64,000 nt of DNA, taken from Pseudomonadota bacterium (lineage in GTDB: Bacteria; Pseudomonadota; Alphaproteobacteria; Rhodobacterales; Rhodobacteraceae). The stretch covers positions 124,001 to 188,000 of the forward strand of contig JAIUPD010000007.1 in the NCBI GenBank assembly GCA_020161615.1, given 5' to 3'. Every line of letters starts with the position of its first letter. Position 1 is the stretch's first letter. The position numbers were made by a program, and so were the translations under genes. Below the pieces are notes generated by a model. That model did not search any database. It was not told the DNA's origin and saw only the letters and a program-made list of their open reading frames with translations. Positions 12,167 to 18,780 of this stretch are shown here, piece after piece.

Positions 12167-12940
12167 TCAGTGGCCGAGGCCGCGGGTGTAGCGCTTTTCG
12201 AGGGCGCGGAAGCCAAGCGCGAGCAGCCCCGCGATCGCCATATAGACCAGCGCCAGCAGGATCAGCGGTTCATACACGATGAACGTGTCCTGACGCACGC
12301 GGCTGGCCACGGCGTAGATCTCGATCACCGTGATGGTCGCCACGAGCGGCGTGGCCTTGAGCTGCAGCACTGTCTCCCCCCCAAGCGTCGGCAAGGCCCG
12401 GGCGAGCGCCTGCGGCAGCCAGATGCGACGGAAGACGGCGAGGGGCGAGAAACCATAGGCGCGCGCGGCCTCGAGCTGACCGGGCGGCACCGCGCGGAAG
12501 GCACCGCGCATCACCTCGCCCTCATAGCCCGCATAGCTGAGGGACAGCGCGGTCAGTGCATAGGGCCAGGCCTGGCGCAGGAGGGGCCAGAGATCGGATT
12601 GCCGGATCCAGGGATATTGCGGGAAGAGAGAGCCGATCCCGTAATAGATCAGCCAGATCTGCAGCAACAGCGGCGTCCCCCGGATCAGCGTGCAGAACCA
12701 GCGCGCGGGCGCGGCCAGCCAGCGCGGACCAGCGGCCTGGGCAAGCCCCAGCGGCACCGCCAGCGCAAAGCCGATGCCGACCGAGAGCACAAGCAGCCAG
12801 AGCGTTCGCCAGAGCCCCTCGAGCCCCAGCTGCCAGTAGCGCGGGATCCAGTCCCAGCGCAGCGCCCAGCCGGCCCAGAGGGCCAGCGCCACGGCCAGCG
12901 CGATCAGCGCCAGCCGGTGCGGTTTCAGCCAGGCCGTCAC
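12167..12940 (-). CDS. Polar amino-acid ABC transporter permease (HisM/ArtM-like)
   Basis: A 257-aa inner-membrane permease with an N-terminal helix (~10-27) and four to five further helices. The EAA loop is ARAYGFSPLAVFRRIWLPQALARALP. GTG start at 12940 overlaps the stop of the upstream permease (GTGA). Third gene of a minus-strand binding protein-permease-permease operon. Given the divergent AruH/AruI/DDAH-like genes, arginine or a related guanidino amino acid is the likely substrate. No ATPase gene follows. Confidence 0.9.
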   Translation of the reverse strand: MTAWLKPHRLALIALAVALALWAGWALRWDWIPRYWQLGLEGLWRTLWLLVLSVGIGFALAVPLGLAQAAGPRWLAAPARWFCTLIRGTPLLLQIWLIYYGIGSLFPQYPWIRQSDLWPLLRQAWPYALTALSLSYAGYEGEVMRGAFRAVPPGQLEAARAYGFSPLAVFRRIWLPQALARALPTLGGETVLQLKATPLVATITVIEIYAVASRVRQDTFIVYEPLILLALVYMAIAGLLALGFRALEKRYTRGLGH

Positions 12941-13680
12941 GGCTGGACCTGACCGCGGCGGAACTGGGTCTCCAGCCAGCCGAAGAAGCGGCCCGAGACC
13001 AGCGTCATCAGAAGGTACAGCGCCCCCGCCGCCAGGAAGAACGTGAAATAGGCCCGGGTCGAGCCCGCCGCCTGCCGCGTCTCCAGCGTGAGTTCGCTGA
13101 AGCCCACCACCGCCAGAAGCGCTGTGTCCTTGGTCGCGATGAGCCAGAGGTTCGACAGCCCCGGCAGCGCCAGCGGCAGCATCGCCGGGAAGGTCACCCG
13201 CCGGAAGGTCTGCCCCCGGCTCATGCCATAGGCGCGCGCGGCCTCCAACTGGCCGCGGGGCACGGCCTGGATGGCGCCGCGCAGCACCTCGGTCGCATAA
13301 GCGCCCTGCACCACGCCCAAGACGCCGATCCCGGCGACGACGCCCGAAATCTCGACCGGGCGCTGGCCGACGAGGGCCAGCACCTGGTTCAACAGATCGG
13401 TGCCCGCGTAATACAGAAGCAGGATCAGGATCAGTTCGGGCACCGCCCGCACCACGGTCGTATAGACCGCCAGCAGGTCGCGCGTCACGGGTCCGCCGCC
13501 CAGCTTGCCGAGGGCGCCGAAGATTCCGATCACCGCGCCGAGGCCAAAGGCCCCCAGCGCGATGATCAGCGAATTCAGCGCGCCGCGCAGCAGGCCGCCG
13601 CCCCAGCCGGGCGGCTGGGGCGAGAGCAGGGCAAGCGTGGCCTCAAGCCCCGGCCAGAAAGCATGAAGCCCGTCGAGCAC
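12937..13680 (-). CDS. Polar amino-acid ABC transporter permease (HisQ/ArtQ-like)
   Basis: A 247-aa permease pairing with the one encoded just downstream. The EAA loop ARAYGMSRGQTFRRVTFPAMLPLALPG and the early segment GALNSLIIALGAFGLGAVIG are typical of the His/Art/Glu family. GTG start at 13680, 3 nt after the binding-protein stop. Together the two permeases form the heteromeric membrane channel. Confidence 0.9.
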   Translation of the reverse strand: MLDGLHAFWPGLEATLALLSPQPPGWGGGLLRGALNSLIIALGAFGLGAVIGIFGALGKLGGGPVTRDLLAVYTTVVRAVPELILILLLYYAGTDLLNQVLALVGQRPVEISGVVAGIGVLGVVQGAYATEVLRGAIQAVPRGQLEAARAYGMSRGQTFRRVTFPAMLPLALPGLSNLWLIATKDTALLAVVGFSELTLETRQAAGSTRAYFTFFLAAGALYLLMTLVSGRFFGWLETQFRRGQVQP

Positions 13681-13683
13681 CCG

Positions 13684-14448
13684 TTATTGGCCGTAGATCG
13701 AGGTGGTGAAGTAGCGCGCCGTGATCTCGTCATAGGTGCCGTCGGCCAGGATCGCGTCGATCCCGCCGTTGATCGCCGCCAGCGTCTCGGCATCGCCCTT
13801 GCGCACGCCGGCGCCGATGCCGCTGCCCAGGATCGCCTGATCCATCGGCACGGCTCCGAGATTCTCGCAGCAGGCCCCGGCCTCGGATTCGAGGAAGGGA
13901 TCCATGGCCAGACTGTCGGCCAGCGTGGCGTCGATCCTTCCTGCGGCGAGGTCCTGGTTGGCCTCGTCCTGGGTCTGGTAGGTACGGATCTCGGTCTCGC
14001 CCTCGAAATATTGCTGGGCGTAATCCTGGAAGACGGTCGAAACCTGAACACCCAGCACGCGCCCGGCCAGCCCCTCGGCCGTGGCCGCGATGCCCATGTC
14101 GCGCTGCGCCACCACCACCACGGGGGTGTTGTAATAGGGCTGGGAAAAGTCGATGGTCTGCGCGCGTTCCTCGGTGATGGTCATCGAGGCCATGATCACG
14201 TCGATCCGTCCCGAGGTCAGCGCCGGGATGATCCCGTCCCAGGCCGTCGGCGTGATCGCGCAATCGAGCGACGAGGCGGCGCAGATCGCGTTGATGATGT
14301 CGATCTCCCAGCCGACCCAATTGCCGGCGGCATCGGGCGCGGCGAAGGGCGGATAGGGTTCGGCGGCGATGCCGATCCGCAGGGGATCGGCGGCGGCGAC
14401 CCCGGCCATCAGGGCCAGGGCGGATGCGGTCAGAACGAGGGTCTTCAT
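13684..14448 (-). CDS. Amino-acid ABC transporter, periplasmic binding protein
   Basis: A 254-aa family 3 (ArtJ/HisJ-like) solute-binding protein with a Sec signal peptide (residues ~1-20, MKTLVLTASALALMAG) and mature start near ADPLRIG. Visible features are EPYPPFAAPD, GWEIDIINAIC, AWDGIIPALTSGRIDVIMASMTITEER (the hinge region that contacts the amino group) and DFSQPYY. Start ATG 14448 follows AGGAG. First gene of the importer operon; its promoter region faces the DDAH-like gene and holds the 14515-14546 palindrome. Confidence 0.92.
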   Translation of the reverse strand: MKTLVLTASALALMAGVAAADPLRIGIAAEPYPPFAAPDAAGNWVGWEIDIINAICAASSLDCAITPTAWDGIIPALTSGRIDVIMASMTITEERAQTIDFSQPYYNTPVVVVAQRDMGIAATAEGLAGRVLGVQVSTVFQDYAQQYFEGETEIRTYQTQDEANQDLAAGRIDATLADSLAMDPFLESEAGACCENLGAVPMDQAILGSGIGAGVRKGDAETLAAINGGIDAILADGTYDEITARYFTTSIYGQ

Positions 14449-14514
14449 CTCTCTCTCCTGTTGATATGGCGCCGTTGGTCGCGCCTCTTGTTTGTCCTTG
14501 TAGAAGGCCAAGCC

Positions 14515-14546
14515 CTGAGTAATTATGCAAGCGTATAATTACTTAG
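14515..14546. promoter_or_regulatory. 32-bp palindrome between divergent transport and catabolic promoters
   Basis: AGTAATTAT and ATAATTACT face each other across an 8-nt spacer (14518-14543, perfect), and two further flanking pairs extend it to 14515-14546 with one mismatch. It embeds a TATAAT hexamer at 14534-14539 on the plus strand and CATAAT (14527-14522) on the minus strand, so a bound dimer would cover both -10 elements. The TetR-family gene at 15424 is the obvious candidate regulator. Confidence 0.7.
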
Positions 14547-14557
14547 CGAGAGTCCCC

Positions 14558-15427
14558 ATGTCTTTCGGTGCCGAAGACCGCACGAAACCTCTGGCCCGCG
14601 TGATCATGCGCGCGCCCGGACCGGCGATGGCCGCGGCGGATCCGGCGCTCTGGCATTACGGCCCCGGGTTTGATGCTGCAAGGGCCGAAGTCCAGCACGC
14701 CGCCCTGGCTGCCATCGTCGCCGCTTCGGGCGCGGAAATCCACTGGATTCCGGCGGCGGATGACGCACTCTCCGATGCGGTCTTCGTGCAGGACCCGTCG
14801 TTCGTGACCCGTGCGGGGGCGGTGGTGCTGAACATGGGCAAGCCGCTGCGGCAAGCCGAACCTGCGCTGCATGTGGCGGCCTATGCGGCGCTGGGCGTTC
14901 CGGTGATCGGTCGCCTGACCGGCGAGGCCACGGTCGAATCAGGCGATTGCCTGTGGATCGACCCCCAGACACTGGCCATCGGCCGGGGGGTGCGCAGCAA
15001 TCAGGCCGGAATCGACGCCGTGGCGGCGATCCTGGCGCCGCACGGGATCGGCGTTCTGGCCTATGATCTGCCCTATTGGACCGGGCCCGAGGCCTGCCTG
15101 CACCTGATGTCGCTGATCTCGCCGCTCGGGCCCAAGATGGCGCTGATCCACGCGCCGCTGCTGCCCTATGCGCTTTGGGCCGACTTGCGGGCGCGCGGGT
15201 GGACCCTGCTGACCGCGCCCGAGGATGAGTTCCACGATTCCAACGGCTTGTCGCTGAATGTTCTGATGCTGAAACCCCAGGATCTGGTGATGGTCGACGG
15301 CTTCCCCAAGACCCGCGCGCTGATGGAGGGCGCGGGCTGCCGGGTGCAGGTCTTCGAGGGCGACGCGCTCTGCATCGCCTGCGAGGGCGGACCGACCTGC
15401 CTGACCCGGCCGGTTCTGCGGGCATGA
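14558..15427 (+). CDS. DDAH-like amidinohydrolase (guanidino-modifying fold)
   Basis: A 289-aa member of the pentein/amidinotransferase superfamily. The C-terminal GGPTCLTRP carries the catalytic Cys (C281), and an upstream GPEACLHLMS block has the conserved His. By family it hydrolyses Nw,Nw-dimethylarginine or a similar guanidino compound to citrulline plus an amine; the exact substrate is inferred. I prefer ATG 14558: the in-frame ATG 14525 lies inside the palindrome and upstream of the likely transcription start. Overlaps the TetR gene by 4 nt (ATGA), which makes an operon with the regulator, transaminase and decarboxylase. Confidence 0.82.
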   Translation: MSFGAEDRTKPLARVIMRAPGPAMAAADPALWHYGPGFDAARAEVQHAALAAIVAASGAEIHWIPAADDALSDAVFVQDPSFVTRAGAVVLNMGKPLRQAEPALHVAAYAALGVPVIGRLTGEATVESGDCLWIDPQTLAIGRGVRSNQAGIDAVAAILAPHGIGVLAYDLPYWTGPEACLHLMSLISPLGPKMALIHAPLLPYALWADLRARGWTLLTAPEDEFHDSNGLSLNVLMLKPQDLVMVDGFPKTRALMEGAGCRVQVFEGDALCIACEGGPTCLTRPVLRA

Positions 15428-16050
15428 ACCAACGCCGTCCGTTCCAGCGGGCGGGCGAGGAGGCCCGCCGCACCGCCTTGATCGAGGCGACGCTCGACCT
15501 GATCGCCGAGGGCGGGCCGCAGGCGGCGACGGTGCGGGCCATCGCCCTAAGGGCGGGCGTGACGCCGGGGCTCATCCGGCATTACTTCGCGACCAAGGAG
15601 GATCTGGTCGCCGCCGCGCATGAGACGCTGATGACCGGCCTGACCGAGGCCAGCGCCGCGCGGCTGGACGATCTGCCGGACGATCCCCTGGCGCGGCTGG
15701 CGGGTTTCGTGGCCAATGCCGTCTCGCCGCCGGTGACGGATCCGCGCGCCGTGGCGCTCTGGGCGGCCTCGATGCAGCTGGTGCCGCGCGATGCCGCCAT
15801 GCGCAAGGTGCACGAGGCGACCTATCTTGGCTTCCGGGACCGGCTGCAGGGAATGATCGCCGATGCGCTGACCGCGGCCGGGCGGCGGGACGAGGATACG
15901 CGGGCGCTGGCCATCGCCGGTAACGCGCTGCTGGACGGGCTCTGGATCGAGGCGGGGGCACTTCCCGACCATTTCCAGGCGAATGAACTGAAATCCATTG
16001 CGATCAAAGCCTTCTCTCGGCTTCTTGATCTGAAACTTCCCGAGGTCTGA
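15424..16050 (+). CDS. TetR-family transcriptional regulator (BetI-like)
   Basis: A 208-aa regulator with a TetR N-terminal helix-turn-helix: RRTALIEATLDLIAEGGPQAATVRAIALRAGVTPGLIRHYFATKEDLV (~15-62). The C-terminal ligand domain resembles BetI. It is translationally coupled to the DDAH-like gene and followed by the transaminase after 1 nt, so it probably autoregulates the operon through the 14515-14546 palindrome. The ligand is probably arginine or a breakdown product; this is inference from position. Confidence 0.88.
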   Translation: MNQRRPFQRAGEEARRTALIEATLDLIAEGGPQAATVRAIALRAGVTPGLIRHYFATKEDLVAAAHETLMTGLTEASAARLDDLPDDPLARLAGFVANAVSPPVTDPRAVALWAASMQLVPRDAAMRKVHEATYLGFRDRLQGMIADALTAAGRRDEDTRALAIAGNALLDGLWIEAGALPDHFQANELKSIAIKAFSRLLDLKLPEV

Positions 16051-16051
16051 G

Positions 16052-17230
16052 ATGAAATACGCCCGCGTCACGGAACAGCTTGCCGGTCTCGGCTCGGACA
16101 AATGGATCCTGAACGCCGCCGCCAAGCGCCGCCAGGCCGAGGGGCATCGGGTGATCAACCTGACCATCGGCGAGCCCGATGTGCCGACGCCCGACAGCCT
16201 GATCGAGACCGCCTGCACCGCCATGCGCGCGGGGCGCACCGGCTATTCCAACGGAAGGGGTGAAGCTGTCCTTCTGGACGCCTTGTCAAGGCGTTACACG
16301 ACGCGGCTTAACCGGCCTTTCGGGCATGACCGCTTCCTCTGCCTGCCCGGCACCCAGACCTCGCTCTATCTGGTGTTCAGCACGATCTGCGAGCCGGGTT
16401 GCGAGGTGATCCTGGGCGATCCGATGTATGCCACCTATGAGGGGATCGTGCGCGCCTCGGGTGCGGTGCCGGTGCCGGTCCGGTTGAAGCCGGAACAGAA
16501 CTTCCGCCTGCAAGCGGCTGATGTTGCTGCGGCAATCACGCCCGCGACCCGCGCCATCTTCCTGAACACCCCCCACAATCCCACGGGCGCCATCCTGCAA
16601 CCGGCCGAGTTGCGCGCGCTGGGCGAGCTGGCGCGCGCGCATGACCTCTGGATCGTTTCGGATGAGGTTTACGGCGATCTGGCCCATGACGGGCGGCCCT
16701 TCACCTCGGCCCTGGCCGATCCCGAATTCGAGGACCGCACGATCGTCACGGCGTCCATTTCGAAAAGCCATGCCGCGCCCGGCTTCCGCTCGGGCTGGGC
16801 CGTGGGGCCGGCCGAGTTCACCCACCGCGCGCTGCCGCTGTCCGAAACCATGCTCTTCGGCTCGCAGCCCTTCATCGCCGACATGACCGCCGAGGCCATC
16901 GCCAGCCCGCCGACCCTGGCGCAGGGCATGGCGGCCCGGATGGCGCGGCGGGCGCAGATCCTGTTCGACAGGCTTGACGGCGTGGCGGGGCTGCGGGTCC
17001 ACCGGCCCGAGGCCGGGATGTTCGCCCTGATCGACATCAGCGCGCTCTCCGACGACTCGCTGGCCTTCGCGCTGGAGCTCTTGGAGGCGACCGATGTGGC
17101 GATGATGCCAGGCGCCTCGTTCGGGGCGGCGCTGGAGGGCTGGCTGCGCGTCGCGCTCAATGCCTCGGACGCCGACACCGAGGAGGCTTGCGCCCGCATC
17201 GCTGCCTATGCGATGCAGAAGGCAGCATGA
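16052..17230 (+). CDS. aruH: Arginine:pyruvate transaminase-like aminotransferase
   Basis: A 392-aa fold-type I PLP aminotransferase. PLP-binding K238 lies in SISKSHAAPGFRSGW. Several stretches closely recall Pseudomonas AruH: DPMYATYEGI, LNTPHNPTGA, ISDEVYGDLAHDG-like and MLFGSQPFI. AruH converts arginine and pyruvate to 2-ketoarginine and alanine, the first step of the arginine transaminase pathway. The next gene encodes an AruI-like decarboxylase for that product and overlaps by 4 nt, which is the strongest support. A generic aspartate/aromatic aminotransferase remains possible. Confidence 0.8.
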   Translation: MKYARVTEQLAGLGSDKWILNAAAKRRQAEGHRVINLTIGEPDVPTPDSLIETACTAMRAGRTGYSNGRGEAVLLDALSRRYTTRLNRPFGHDRFLCLPGTQTSLYLVFSTICEPGCEVILGDPMYATYEGIVRASGAVPVPVRLKPEQNFRLQAADVAAAITPATRAIFLNTPHNPTGAILQPAELRALGELARAHDLWIVSDEVYGDLAHDGRPFTSALADPEFEDRTIVTASISKSHAAPGFRSGWAVGPAEFTHRALPLSETMLFGSQPFIADMTAEAIASPPTLAQGMAARMARRAQILFDRLDGVAGLRVHRPEAGMFALIDISALSDDSLAFALELLEATDVAMMPGASFGAALEGWLRVALNASDADTEEACARIAAYAMQKAA

Positions 17231-18780
17231 GCAATGTTGCACAAACCCTTGTCGACTGGCTGAAAATCGAGGGCGTCACGGTGATCTTCGGGATCCCGGG
17301 CGTCCATACGATCGAATTGTACCGCGCGCTGGCGGGTTCCGGCATCCGCCACATCACGCCGCGGCACGAGGCCTCGGCCGGGTTCATGGCTGATGGTTAT
17401 GCCCGGGTTTCGGGTCACTTCGGCGTGGCGCTGGTGATCACCGGGCCGGGCGTCACCAACATGATGACGCCGATGGCGCAGGCCCGCGCCGATTCCATCC
17501 CGATCCTGGTGATCTCGGGCGTCAACCGGCGCGACACGCTGGGCAAGGGGCTGGGCTATCTGCACGAATTGCCCGACCAGCGCGCGGTGACAAAGGTGCT
17601 GGGCCCGGCGCTGCATCTGGAGGATCCGCAGGCGCTGCCCGGGCTCCTGGCCCATGCGGGCCGCGCGCTGACCACCGGGCGGCGCGGCCCGGTGCATGTG
17701 GAGATCCCGCTCGACCTGATGGCGGCCAAGGCTCCGCCCGCCGCGGCGCTGGCCACCCCGGTTGCCACCCTGCCCGATCCGGCCAAGGCCCGCGCGCGGT
17801 TGCGGCTGTCGAAGCGGCCGGTGATCCTGGCAGGCGGCGGCTGCCGTTATGCCGGGGCCGAGCTTCAGGCCTTCGCCGAGGCGCTGAACGCGCCGGTGAT
17901 CCTGACCACCAACGCCCGCGGGCTGATGCATGGGCATCCTCTGGCCATCCCCGCCTCGCCCAGCCTGCAACCCGTACGCGACCTGATCCGCGACTCCGAC
18001 CAGTTGATCGTCGCGGGCTCGGAACTGGGGCCGACCGATTGCGACATGTACGGCACCGGCACCTTCCCCGAACTCTCGGGCATGATCCGCATCGACATCG
18101 ACGGCGCGCAGCTGGCCCGCCATTTCGCCGCGCTGACGCTGCAGGCCGATGTGGCGGCGATGCTGCCAAAACTGCATCCGGTGGCCCCCGCCGCCGACGG
18201 CCCTGAGCGCGCGGCGGCCACGCGGCAAGCTGCCTTCGCCGCGCTCACGCCTGAGTATCAGGATGAAGTGCGGCTGCTGCAGCGGCTGCGCGATGCCGTG
18301 CCGAATGCGCTGTTTGTCGGCGATTCGACGCAGATCGCCTATGCCGGAAACCTCTATTACAGCCATGACCGCGCGGGCGGCTGGTTCAACGCCGCCACCG
18401 GCTATGGGGCGTTGGGCTACGCGATCGGGGCCTCGGTCGGGGCAGCGCTGGCCGATCCCGGGGCGCGGGTCGTCTGCCTCGCGGGCGACGGCGGGCTGAT
18501 GTTCCACCCGGGCGATCTGCGCACCGCGCGGGACGAGAATCTGGACGTGACCTTCGTCGTCTTCAACAACGAGGGCTATGGCGAGATCGCGCGCGCCATG
18601 AAGGACGCAGGCGCCGAGGTGATCGGCTGCACGCCCTCGGCCCCCGACATGCGGGCGCTGGCCGAGGCGATGGGCCTGCCCTATGCCCGCGCTACCGACA
18701 GCGATCTGCCGATCATCGTGGCCAGTGGACAAGGCCCCCGTCTGGTCGAGGTCCGGCGCAGAAACGTGCGCGATTTCTAA
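17227..18780 (+). CDS. aruI: ThDP-dependent 2-ketoarginine (5-guanidino-2-oxopentanoate) decarboxylase
   Basis: A 517-aa ThDP enzyme of the acetolactate synthase/pyruvate decarboxylase fold. The Pyr domain has RHEASAGFMADGYAR (activating Glu ~50). The PP domain has the ThDP/Mg motif beginning AGDGGLMF and ending FNNEGYG about 28 residues later. It overlaps the transaminase by 4 nt. AruI decarboxylates 2-ketoarginine to 4-guanidinobutanal. Length and Pyr-domain wording fit AruI better than acetolactate synthase, and no small subunit is present. Last gene of the operon; downstream dehydrogenase and guanidinobutyrase genes are not here. Confidence 0.82.
   Translation: MSNVAQTLVDWLKIEGVTVIFGIPGVHTIELYRALAGSGIRHITPRHEASAGFMADGYARVSGHFGVALVITGPGVTNMMTPMAQARADSIPILVISGVNRRDTLGKGLGYLHELPDQRAVTKVLGPALHLEDPQALPGLLAHAGRALTTGRRGPVHVEIPLDLMAAKAPPAAALATPVATLPDPAKARARLRLSKRPVILAGGGCRYAGAELQAFAEALNAPVILTTNARGLMHGHPLAIPASPSLQPVRDLIRDSDQLIVAGSELGPTDCDMYGTGTFPELSGMIRIDIDGAQLARHFAALTLQADVAAMLPKLHPVAPAADGPERAAATRQAAFAALTPEYQDEVRLLQRLRDAVPNALFVGDSTQIAYAGNLYYSHDRAGGWFNAATGYGALGYAIGASVGAALADPGARVVCLAGDGGLMFHPGDLRTARDENLDVTFVVFNNEGYGEIARAMKDAGAEVIGCTPSAPDMRALAEAMGLPYARATDSDLPIIVASGQGPRLVEVRRRNVRDF

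Follow-up and report, generated by a model that had tools for sequence, protein, structure and literature searches.

What is taken up and degraded by a compact divergent locus in which an amino acid transporter faces a hydrolase, a regulator, and two enzymes resembling AruH and AruI? The locus lies at positions 12,167–18,780 of the window, by which we mean the whole 64,000-nucleotide stretch of DNA analyzed (positions 124,001–188,000 of contig JAIUPD010000007.1, assembly GCA_020161615.1, family Rhodobacteraceae). A sequence-only reading had proposed a system for arginine plus dimethylarginine or other guanidino compounds. We favor this proposal in the following form, with a probability of about 60%: the locus forms a module, controlled by TetR, that takes up and degrades alpha-amino acids of the arginine type, and in it an enzyme of the DDAH family would act on N-substituted, probably methylated, arginines. 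The sequence itself shows the gene architecture, conservation, active-site residues, the co-occurrence of TetR with an operator-like site, and the swapping of two DDAH types; the substrates, the direction of flow, the role of TetR as a repressor, and an ATPase acting in trans are predicted.

All seven genes named in the sequence-only reading were found intact and in the order given. On the minus strand, they encode two permeases of the polar amino acid type, HisM/ArtM-like (12,167–12,940) and HisQ/ArtQ-like (12,937–13,680), and a periplasmic binding protein of the Lys/Arg/Orn type (13,684–14,448). The plus strand carries the genes for a DDAH-family (pentein) hydrolase, referred to as DDAH1 (14,558–15,427), a TetR regulator recognized by domain match, with a BetI-type C-terminal domain (15,424–16,050), an AruH-like class I/II aminotransferase dependent on pyridoxal phosphate (16,052–17,230), and an AruI-like 2-oxoacid decarboxylase dependent on thiamine diphosphate (17,227–18,780). 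The close spacing claimed earlier was also observed, as adjacent genes overlap by 4 bases (the two permeases, DDAH1/TetR, and AruH/AruI) or stand 1 base (TetR/AruH) or 3 bases (permease/binding protein) apart. The start of DDAH1 is most likely at 14,558 because the upstream ATG at 14,525 falls inside an operator-like dyad (14,515–14,546). The start of the decarboxylase was placed at 17,227 by the ATGA overlap, the first possible start being at 17,188.

The arrangement recurs across alphaproteobacteria. The main set of loci consisted of the best 80 of 134 relatives from the DDAH alignment (contig scan with two peptide patterns), some of their contigs ending within the cluster. A second set comprised 40 rhizobial contexts from the family that holds genome G481 (297 genomes); L384 and L037 are one locus, present in both sets. 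The order DDAH-TetR-AruH-AruI behind a divergent importer was found in 23 of the 80 loci and in 15 of the 40 rhizobial contexts. The recurrence sought among Rhodobacterales was therefore found there and also in Rhizobiales, and the recurring gene order rules out chance clustering. Among the 80 loci, the binding protein and each permease were present in 79, AruI in 75, the importer ATPase in 67, TetR in 62, and AruH in 23. Judged from gene content, the importer appears to be the constant part of the cluster; AruI and TetR accompany it in most cases and AruH frequently. An Ldh_2-family dehydrogenase was present in 50 of these loci, none of which contained AruH, and an SDR in 43. At L089 (3293–4297 and 11174–11962) and at other Mesorhizobium loci, an Ldh_2-family dehydrogenase and an SDR were seen where AruH is absent. 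Many carriers of the DDAH1 cluster belong to Mesorhizobium, a genus of legume symbionts. Within the order of the window's own genome, the strong DDAH1 form was rare (4 of 292 genomes: its own, G098, G187, and G237), with two more genomes at 32% identity; a thin sampling of the class gave 3 of 385. Cluster-type AruH was found in 80 of the 297 genomes of the rhizobial family. The importer was present in 30 of the 40 rhizobial contexts, together with DDAH1 in 17, with a second DDAH type (DDAH2, see below) in two, and with neither in 11.

Is the regulator tied to the cluster by a binding site? The dyad in the divergent gap (14,515–14,546) has 12-base inverted repeat arms that are 92% complementary and an 8-base spacer, and it is probably the TetR operator. 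Inverted repeats alone were weak evidence, as a nine-base one turned up in 54 of 500 shuffled versions of the gap. The core of the dyad (TTATGCAAGCGTATAA, 14,523–14,538), conserved as TTATnCAAGyGTATAA, occurred once in the window at up to two mismatches and in none of 100 shuffles of the window. In the main set, where the core was scored at up to two mismatches and within 160 bases upstream of DDAH, it was present in all 62 loci with TetR and in 2 of the 18 without. At one mismatch, the respective counts were 54 of 62 and 2 of 18. The p value for the co-occurrence of operator and TetR was 6e-15, which overstates independence, the rows being related species. As for the two core-bearing loci without TetR, the contig of L034 stops just past DDAH, and L036 has the site and no adjacent TetR. 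In the rhizobial contexts (one mismatch, anywhere in the stretch), the core was found in 30 of the 35 loci with TetR and in none of the five without. The five TetR loci that lacked it were L389 and four loci with no match to a permease or binding protein (L357, L383, L388, and L394). Part of the site may be promoter, given its overlap with a -10-like TATAAT string.

In the window's own genome, the search at up to two mismatches returned one exact core, one with one mismatch, and one with two. A scan of ten genomes gave 25 places for the core and 23 for a reversed control, i.e., two-mismatch sites are background. The near-copy with one mismatch (G000:C11:47973-47988, L286) lies between the genes for an ArgE-like deacylase and OppD. 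Near-copies were seen at the equivalent place in P. aggregans (L283) and G098 (L290), making three Pararhodobacter genomes in all. Among the 30 loci read, which come from the 36 of 46 genomes that had a match, 28 lacked the near-copy upstream of ArgE, and at least 6 of these 28 have a related -10-like string. A wider TetR regulon was therefore not established, as two-mismatch sites are at background and the near-copy is missing upstream of most ArgE genes. In six loci of the Hoeflea type, homologs of ArgE and OppD are neighbors of the DDAH cluster, without the core (in L040, they are 68–70% and 72–74% identical).

On which compound does the hydrolase act? DDAH1 matched three DDAH models and scored below the cut-off of each; the best NCBIfam dimethylargininase equivalog, NF045660, gave 77.5 bits against a cut-off of 340. 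The arcA model TIGR01078 was missed as well (41.8 bits, cut-off 489). The structure model of DDAH1 (mean pLDDT 90) has the pentein fold. It aligned equally well with DDAH and arginine deiminase (Z of 29.9 and 30.9, respectively), and the top Foldseek entries were the DDAHs 3rhy and 1h70. In the alignment of 102 homolog rows (L384 repeating L037), Asp73, Asp79, Arg98, Glu127, Arg146, and His182 were conserved in all rows and Cys281 in 100. These residues correspond to Asp60, Asp66, Arg85, Glu114, Arg132, His162, and Cys249 of PaDDAH, so that DDAH1 keeps the Cys-His-Glu catalytic set together with Asp60 and Asp66 (PaDDAH numbering). The earlier description as a DDAH-like enzyme is thus borne out by catalytic set and fold, and not by the model cut-offs. 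Two further PaDDAH positions are changed. Glu65 is replaced by Gln78 (Gln in 14, His in 86, and Ala in 2 of the 102 rows), and Lys164 is replaced by Met184 (Met in 100, Gly in 2). The roles of these residues were taken partly from PDB titles and are otherwise those that we presume. Of the two aspartates of arginine deiminase, Asp166 is matched by Asp79, and Asp280, the second guanidinium aspartate (His278-x-Asp280), falls on Met184; the latter position was located through the His-x-Asp spacing and PDB titles. DDAHs lack this aspartate too. Because arginine deiminase has Asp where DDAH1 has Met184, the active site favors action on a substituted arginine rather than on arginine. Paralogs of DDAH1 in which the catalytic Cys and Met184 are both replaced by Gly were seen paired with AruH in L366 (5007–7216) and L374 (5995–8263), and no importer or TetR match was found beside them.

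Across the phylum, 42 of 398 genomes exceeded the cut-off for the AruI family. Among the 40 AruI loci read, of which 11 adjoin the importer, another DDAH-family gene was seen in the same cluster. Its product, DDAH2, is 27% identical to the window's enzyme and gave 216 bits against a DDAH cut-off of 450. In the tree, 13 DDAH2 rows grouped together at 100/100 and 17 DDAH1 rows at 96/96. All nine PaDDAH positions compared, Glu65 and Lys164 among them, are kept in all 55 rows of the DDAH2 alignment (41 distinct genes), except for Asp in place of Glu114 in four rows. DDAH2 is carried by 68 of the 292 genomes of the order and by none of the four DDAH1 genomes, an absence that alone is not significant, given 23% carriers. 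At 26 of the best 30 DDAH2 loci, a gene for AruI, AruH, or the importer's ATPase lay no more than 1.5 kb away. Full clusters, an importer with DDAH2 alone, and stand-alone genes were all seen in 20 wider contexts; L203, L218, and L219 combine the importer and DDAH2 without AruH/AruI. In 23 DDAH2 contexts, the operator core was present in all nine with a strong TetR match and absent from the other 14, the TetR matches of L218 and L219 being weak. Across these clusters, DDAH appears to be the interchangeable enzyme, with the two types swapping.

The sequence-only reading had equated the last two enzymes with AruH and AruI of the Pseudomonas arginine transaminase pathway. The AruI-like protein passed NF005712 (5-guanidino-2-oxopentanoate decarboxylase) with 600 bits against a cut-off of 500. 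For the AruH-like protein, assigned by family match and tree, a search of 249 genomes returned Pseudomonas-type AruH (38%–39%) as the best matches after the relatives from its own cluster. These two results support the proposed identities; grouping with the Pseudomonas proteins was not observed, as the phylogeny placed both enzymes in clades apart from them. In the AruI tree, 35 importer-linked rows together with L155 and L156 formed a 37-row clade (100/100) without L145 and L147, which we take, by comparison of their neighboring genes with the PAO1 neighborhood, to carry the Pseudomonas AruH/AruI pair. In the AruH tree (48 of 57 rows kept after near-identical ones were dropped), a 27-row cluster clade (100/99) formed without L228, the row for AruH of the Pseudomonas pair; the context of L227, inside the clade, was not read. 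The outermost rows of both trees are long-branched, and their deep order is unsure. A GntC or enduracididine-type cyclase was rejected for the AruH-like protein. Its match to the GntC cyclodehydratase model NF041364 (242 bits) lies below the cut-off of 415, and Pseudomonas-type AruH also has this model as its best match, at 309 bits. An AruI paralog (G000:C6:262640-268813, L263; 372 bits to NF005712) was seen in the window's own genome beside a dipeptide-type transporter (named by eye) and less than 5 kb from a second ArgE-like gene. This genome also contains an apparent arginase-ornithine cyclodeaminase pair, so plain arginine use would not need the locus.

The importer proved to be partial. 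The HisM/ArtM-like permease matched Pfam BPD_transp_1, and both permeases missed their NCBIfam cut-offs (HisM, 155 bits against 306; HisQ, 173 bits against 319). The binding protein missed TIGR01096 (222 bits against 256), and its best PDB matches are lysine/arginine/ornithine (LAO)-binding proteins. The claim of an ABC importer thus held for the binding protein and the two permeases, and no ATP-binding gene was found beside them within the window locus. This rules out a complete polar amino acid importer (binding protein, two permeases, and ATPase) at the locus. The 13 loci of the main set without an ATPase were exactly L023–L035, all Rhodobacterales; Pararhodobacter L036 carries one. We infer that the ATPase is supplied in trans from elsewhere in the genome. 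The closest match there to the cluster ATPase of L158 is HisP-like (L259:7124-7885, 60% identical) and is followed by its own permease-like and glutamine-synthetase-like open reading frames (named by eye). In the binding-protein alignment, Tyr14, Ser70, Arg77, and Asp161 of the LAO-binding protein are kept and Phe52 is replaced by Trp in 127 of 127 rows. The position of Asp11 is Ala, Pro, or Ser, and an invariant Glu (117/117) stands two residues after it. If the ligand-contacting positions have the roles that we presume, the end of the site that holds the alpha-amino acid group would be conserved and the side-chain end altered, because Tyr, Trp, Ser, Arg, and Asp are kept and the Asp11 position is changed.

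Other genes accompany the cluster. An M20 amidohydrolase was present in 26 of the 40 rhizobial contexts, and this repetition suggests N-acyl amino acid precursors. Such genes (TIGR01891, DoeB2-like below the cut-off) were seen near the cluster at L364:11332-12549, L389:11193-12395, and L218:6793-8013. Sixteen of the 80 loci have a carnitine-operon-type gene (BKACE) on one side of the cluster or the other, with a dehydrogenase alongside where read. The flanks of L028, L035, L036, and L040, from several genera, hold an operon of BKACE, dehydrogenase, and usually AraC, which we presume to be of the carnitine-degradation type. In the window, the locus is flanked by a ThiE-like and a ClpX-like gene (the latter named by eye). 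An importer-ATPase-DDAH-TetR-aminotransferase cluster was seen on the plasmid pAtAB2-73d of Rhizobium sp. AB2/73 (L267), typed conjugative, with no AruI annotated alongside. Distant DDAH-like genes were seen on a Kozakia plasmid (L269), beside M20 peptidases and an amino acid ABC transporter, and on a plasmid of the archaeon Haladaptatus (L270), next to genes for a nitrilase-family hydrolase and an aminotransferase.

How much of such a system has been described? In S. meliloti, arginine, agmatine, ornithine, and putrescine are transaminated to pyruvate by AspC (SMc02262), and IlvB1 (SMc02263) is a 2-oxo acid decarboxylase whose reported activity is sevenfold higher toward 5-amino-2-oxopentanoate than toward the corresponding guanidino acid, with citrulline as part of the assay mix (PMC7268258). 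SMc02255 is cydA (PMC9387825), SMc02257-02258-02260 form a transporter (PMC3596328), and SMc02259 is a Lys/Arg/Orn-binding protein (PMC4941405). These are the same kinds of genes as in the window, with an order inferred from the published tags. The tag order matches L364, whose cluster continues into M20 and a cydA-like gene (named by eye). Unlike the window, L364 has no DDAH and contains an ATPase and an M20 amidohydrolase; its AruH, AruI, TetR, and binding protein are 53%, 52%, 45%, and 55% identical to those of the window, respectively. From this match, AspC/IlvB1 looks like a DDAH-less form of the cluster. The portions of PMC7268258 consulted report AspC and IlvB1 for arginine in symbiosis, not as a transporter-enzyme unit with DDAH. 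The suggestion that the system is undescribed in this form therefore applies to the DDAH-bearing cluster, of which no description was found among the matches listed in the Creative Commons (CC)-licensed PMC literature, and not to the core, which AspC/IlvB1 fits.

Regulated bacterial methylarginine use through DDAH, as we propose for the window, is represented by P. aeruginosa DdaH (PA1195) and DdaR (PA1196), where a sigma54 activator is found in place of TetR (PMC8657755, PMC8694187, PMC8151288). The AruH and AruI of Pseudomonas aeruginosa have the same two reaction types as the window enzymes, of which AruI passes the decarboxylase model, but, with L145 and L147 standing in for them, they are 38% (AruH) and 40% (AruI) identical to the window enzymes and fall in separate clades. 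No DDAH, TetR, or importer match was found in the 13.6 kb read around Pseudomonas-type AruH/AruI. To our knowledge, mammalian DDAH and AGXT2 have no linked decarboxylase or importer. The mammalian pair resembles our reading in that hydrolysis and transamination with pyruvate serve the same class of compounds; AGXT2 is an aminotransferase of class II, as compared to Pfam class I/II in the window, and human AGT2 (AGXT2) uses asymmetric dimethylarginine (ADMA) (PMC9309667).

In the mechanism that we propose, the amino acid would be imported by the binding protein and the two permeases, energized by an ATPase from elsewhere in the genome. From an N-substituted arginine (a methylarginine being the likeliest), the DDAH-family enzyme would yield citrulline and an amine via a cysteine-linked intermediate. 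Arginine, citrulline, or ornithine would be transaminated with pyruvate by the AruH-like enzyme, and the AruI-like enzyme would turn the 2-oxo acid into a C4 aldehyde, which would enter the gamma-aminobutyric acid route by enzymes encoded elsewhere. TetR would sit on the single operator of the divergent gap until a ligand released both arms. That the steps form a new methylarginine pathway, with two distant DDAH types and one TetR operator in Rhodobacterales and Rhizobiales, is a tentative and rather doubtful extension. In such a pathway, DDAH would give citrulline, which would be processed via 5-ureido-2-oxopentanoate to 4-ureidobutanal, or ADMA and symmetric dimethylarginine (SDMA) would be transaminated directly, as by AGXT2. 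A variant of the preferred module, differing in flow alone, has two parallel routes that share the importer and regulator. DDAH would act on N-monomethylarginine and ADMA, AruH/AruI on arginine, ornithine, and possibly SDMA/ADMA directly, as with mammalian DDAH/AGXT2, and the citrulline from DDAH would be used elsewhere. The presence or absence of AruH and DDAH around the importer independently of each other, the use of ADMA by human AGT2, and the activity of S. meliloti AspC/IlvB1, whose inferred cluster has no DDAH gene, all agree with it, but in the window DDAH, TetR, AruH, and AruI overlap or abut, which suits consecutive steps, and the portions of the literature consulted contained no test of this family's enzymes on methylarginines. 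We regard parallel routes as somewhat unlikely.

The remaining explanations change the substrate. If DDAH1 were an arginine deiminase, arginine would be converted to citrulline, 5-ureido-2-oxopentanoate, and 4-ureidobutanal, and no methylarginine would be involved. Methylarginines are much rarer in nature than arginine, structure alignment puts arginine deiminases level with DDAHs, and a protein encoded on a Rhizobium plasmid, which shares 63% identity with the DDAH1 of L044, is annotated as "arginine deiminase family protein." However, the Asp280 position is Met in nearly every DDAH1 row, and in the cluster DDAH1 is replaced by the canonical DDAH2. A plain arginine deiminase was therefore rejected as the assignment and is retained as an improbable rival. 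The same canonical DDAH2 speaks against another amino acid of the guanidino or N-substituted kind (for example, homoarginine, canavanine, N-hydroxyarginine, or an N-acylated arginine), for which the altered DDAH1 pocket would reflect a substituent that is not methyl. DDAH1 does depart from true DDAHs at Glu65 and Lys164, many carriers are Mesorhizobium, and the frequent M20 amidohydrolases are consistent with N-acyl precursors. On the other hand, the positions that contact the alpha-carboxylate in PaDDAH are kept in DDAH1, and no canavanine- or homoarginine-specific gene was recognized alongside, although no dedicated search was made. We consider such a substrate hardly probable and prefer the module in which DDAH acts on N-substituted, probably methylated, arginines.

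Methylarginines are released on the breakdown of methylated proteins, and little was found in the CC-licensed PMC literature on their use by environmental bacteria. A conserved import and degradation module operated by TetR would, if the preferred reading is true, provide a defined gene set, an operator, and a test system for this use. The swapping of two DDAH types in one regulated framework makes the substrate assignment directly testable. The module would also explain the amino acid transporter that adjoins, by its tags, the symbiosis-important aspC of S. meliloti.

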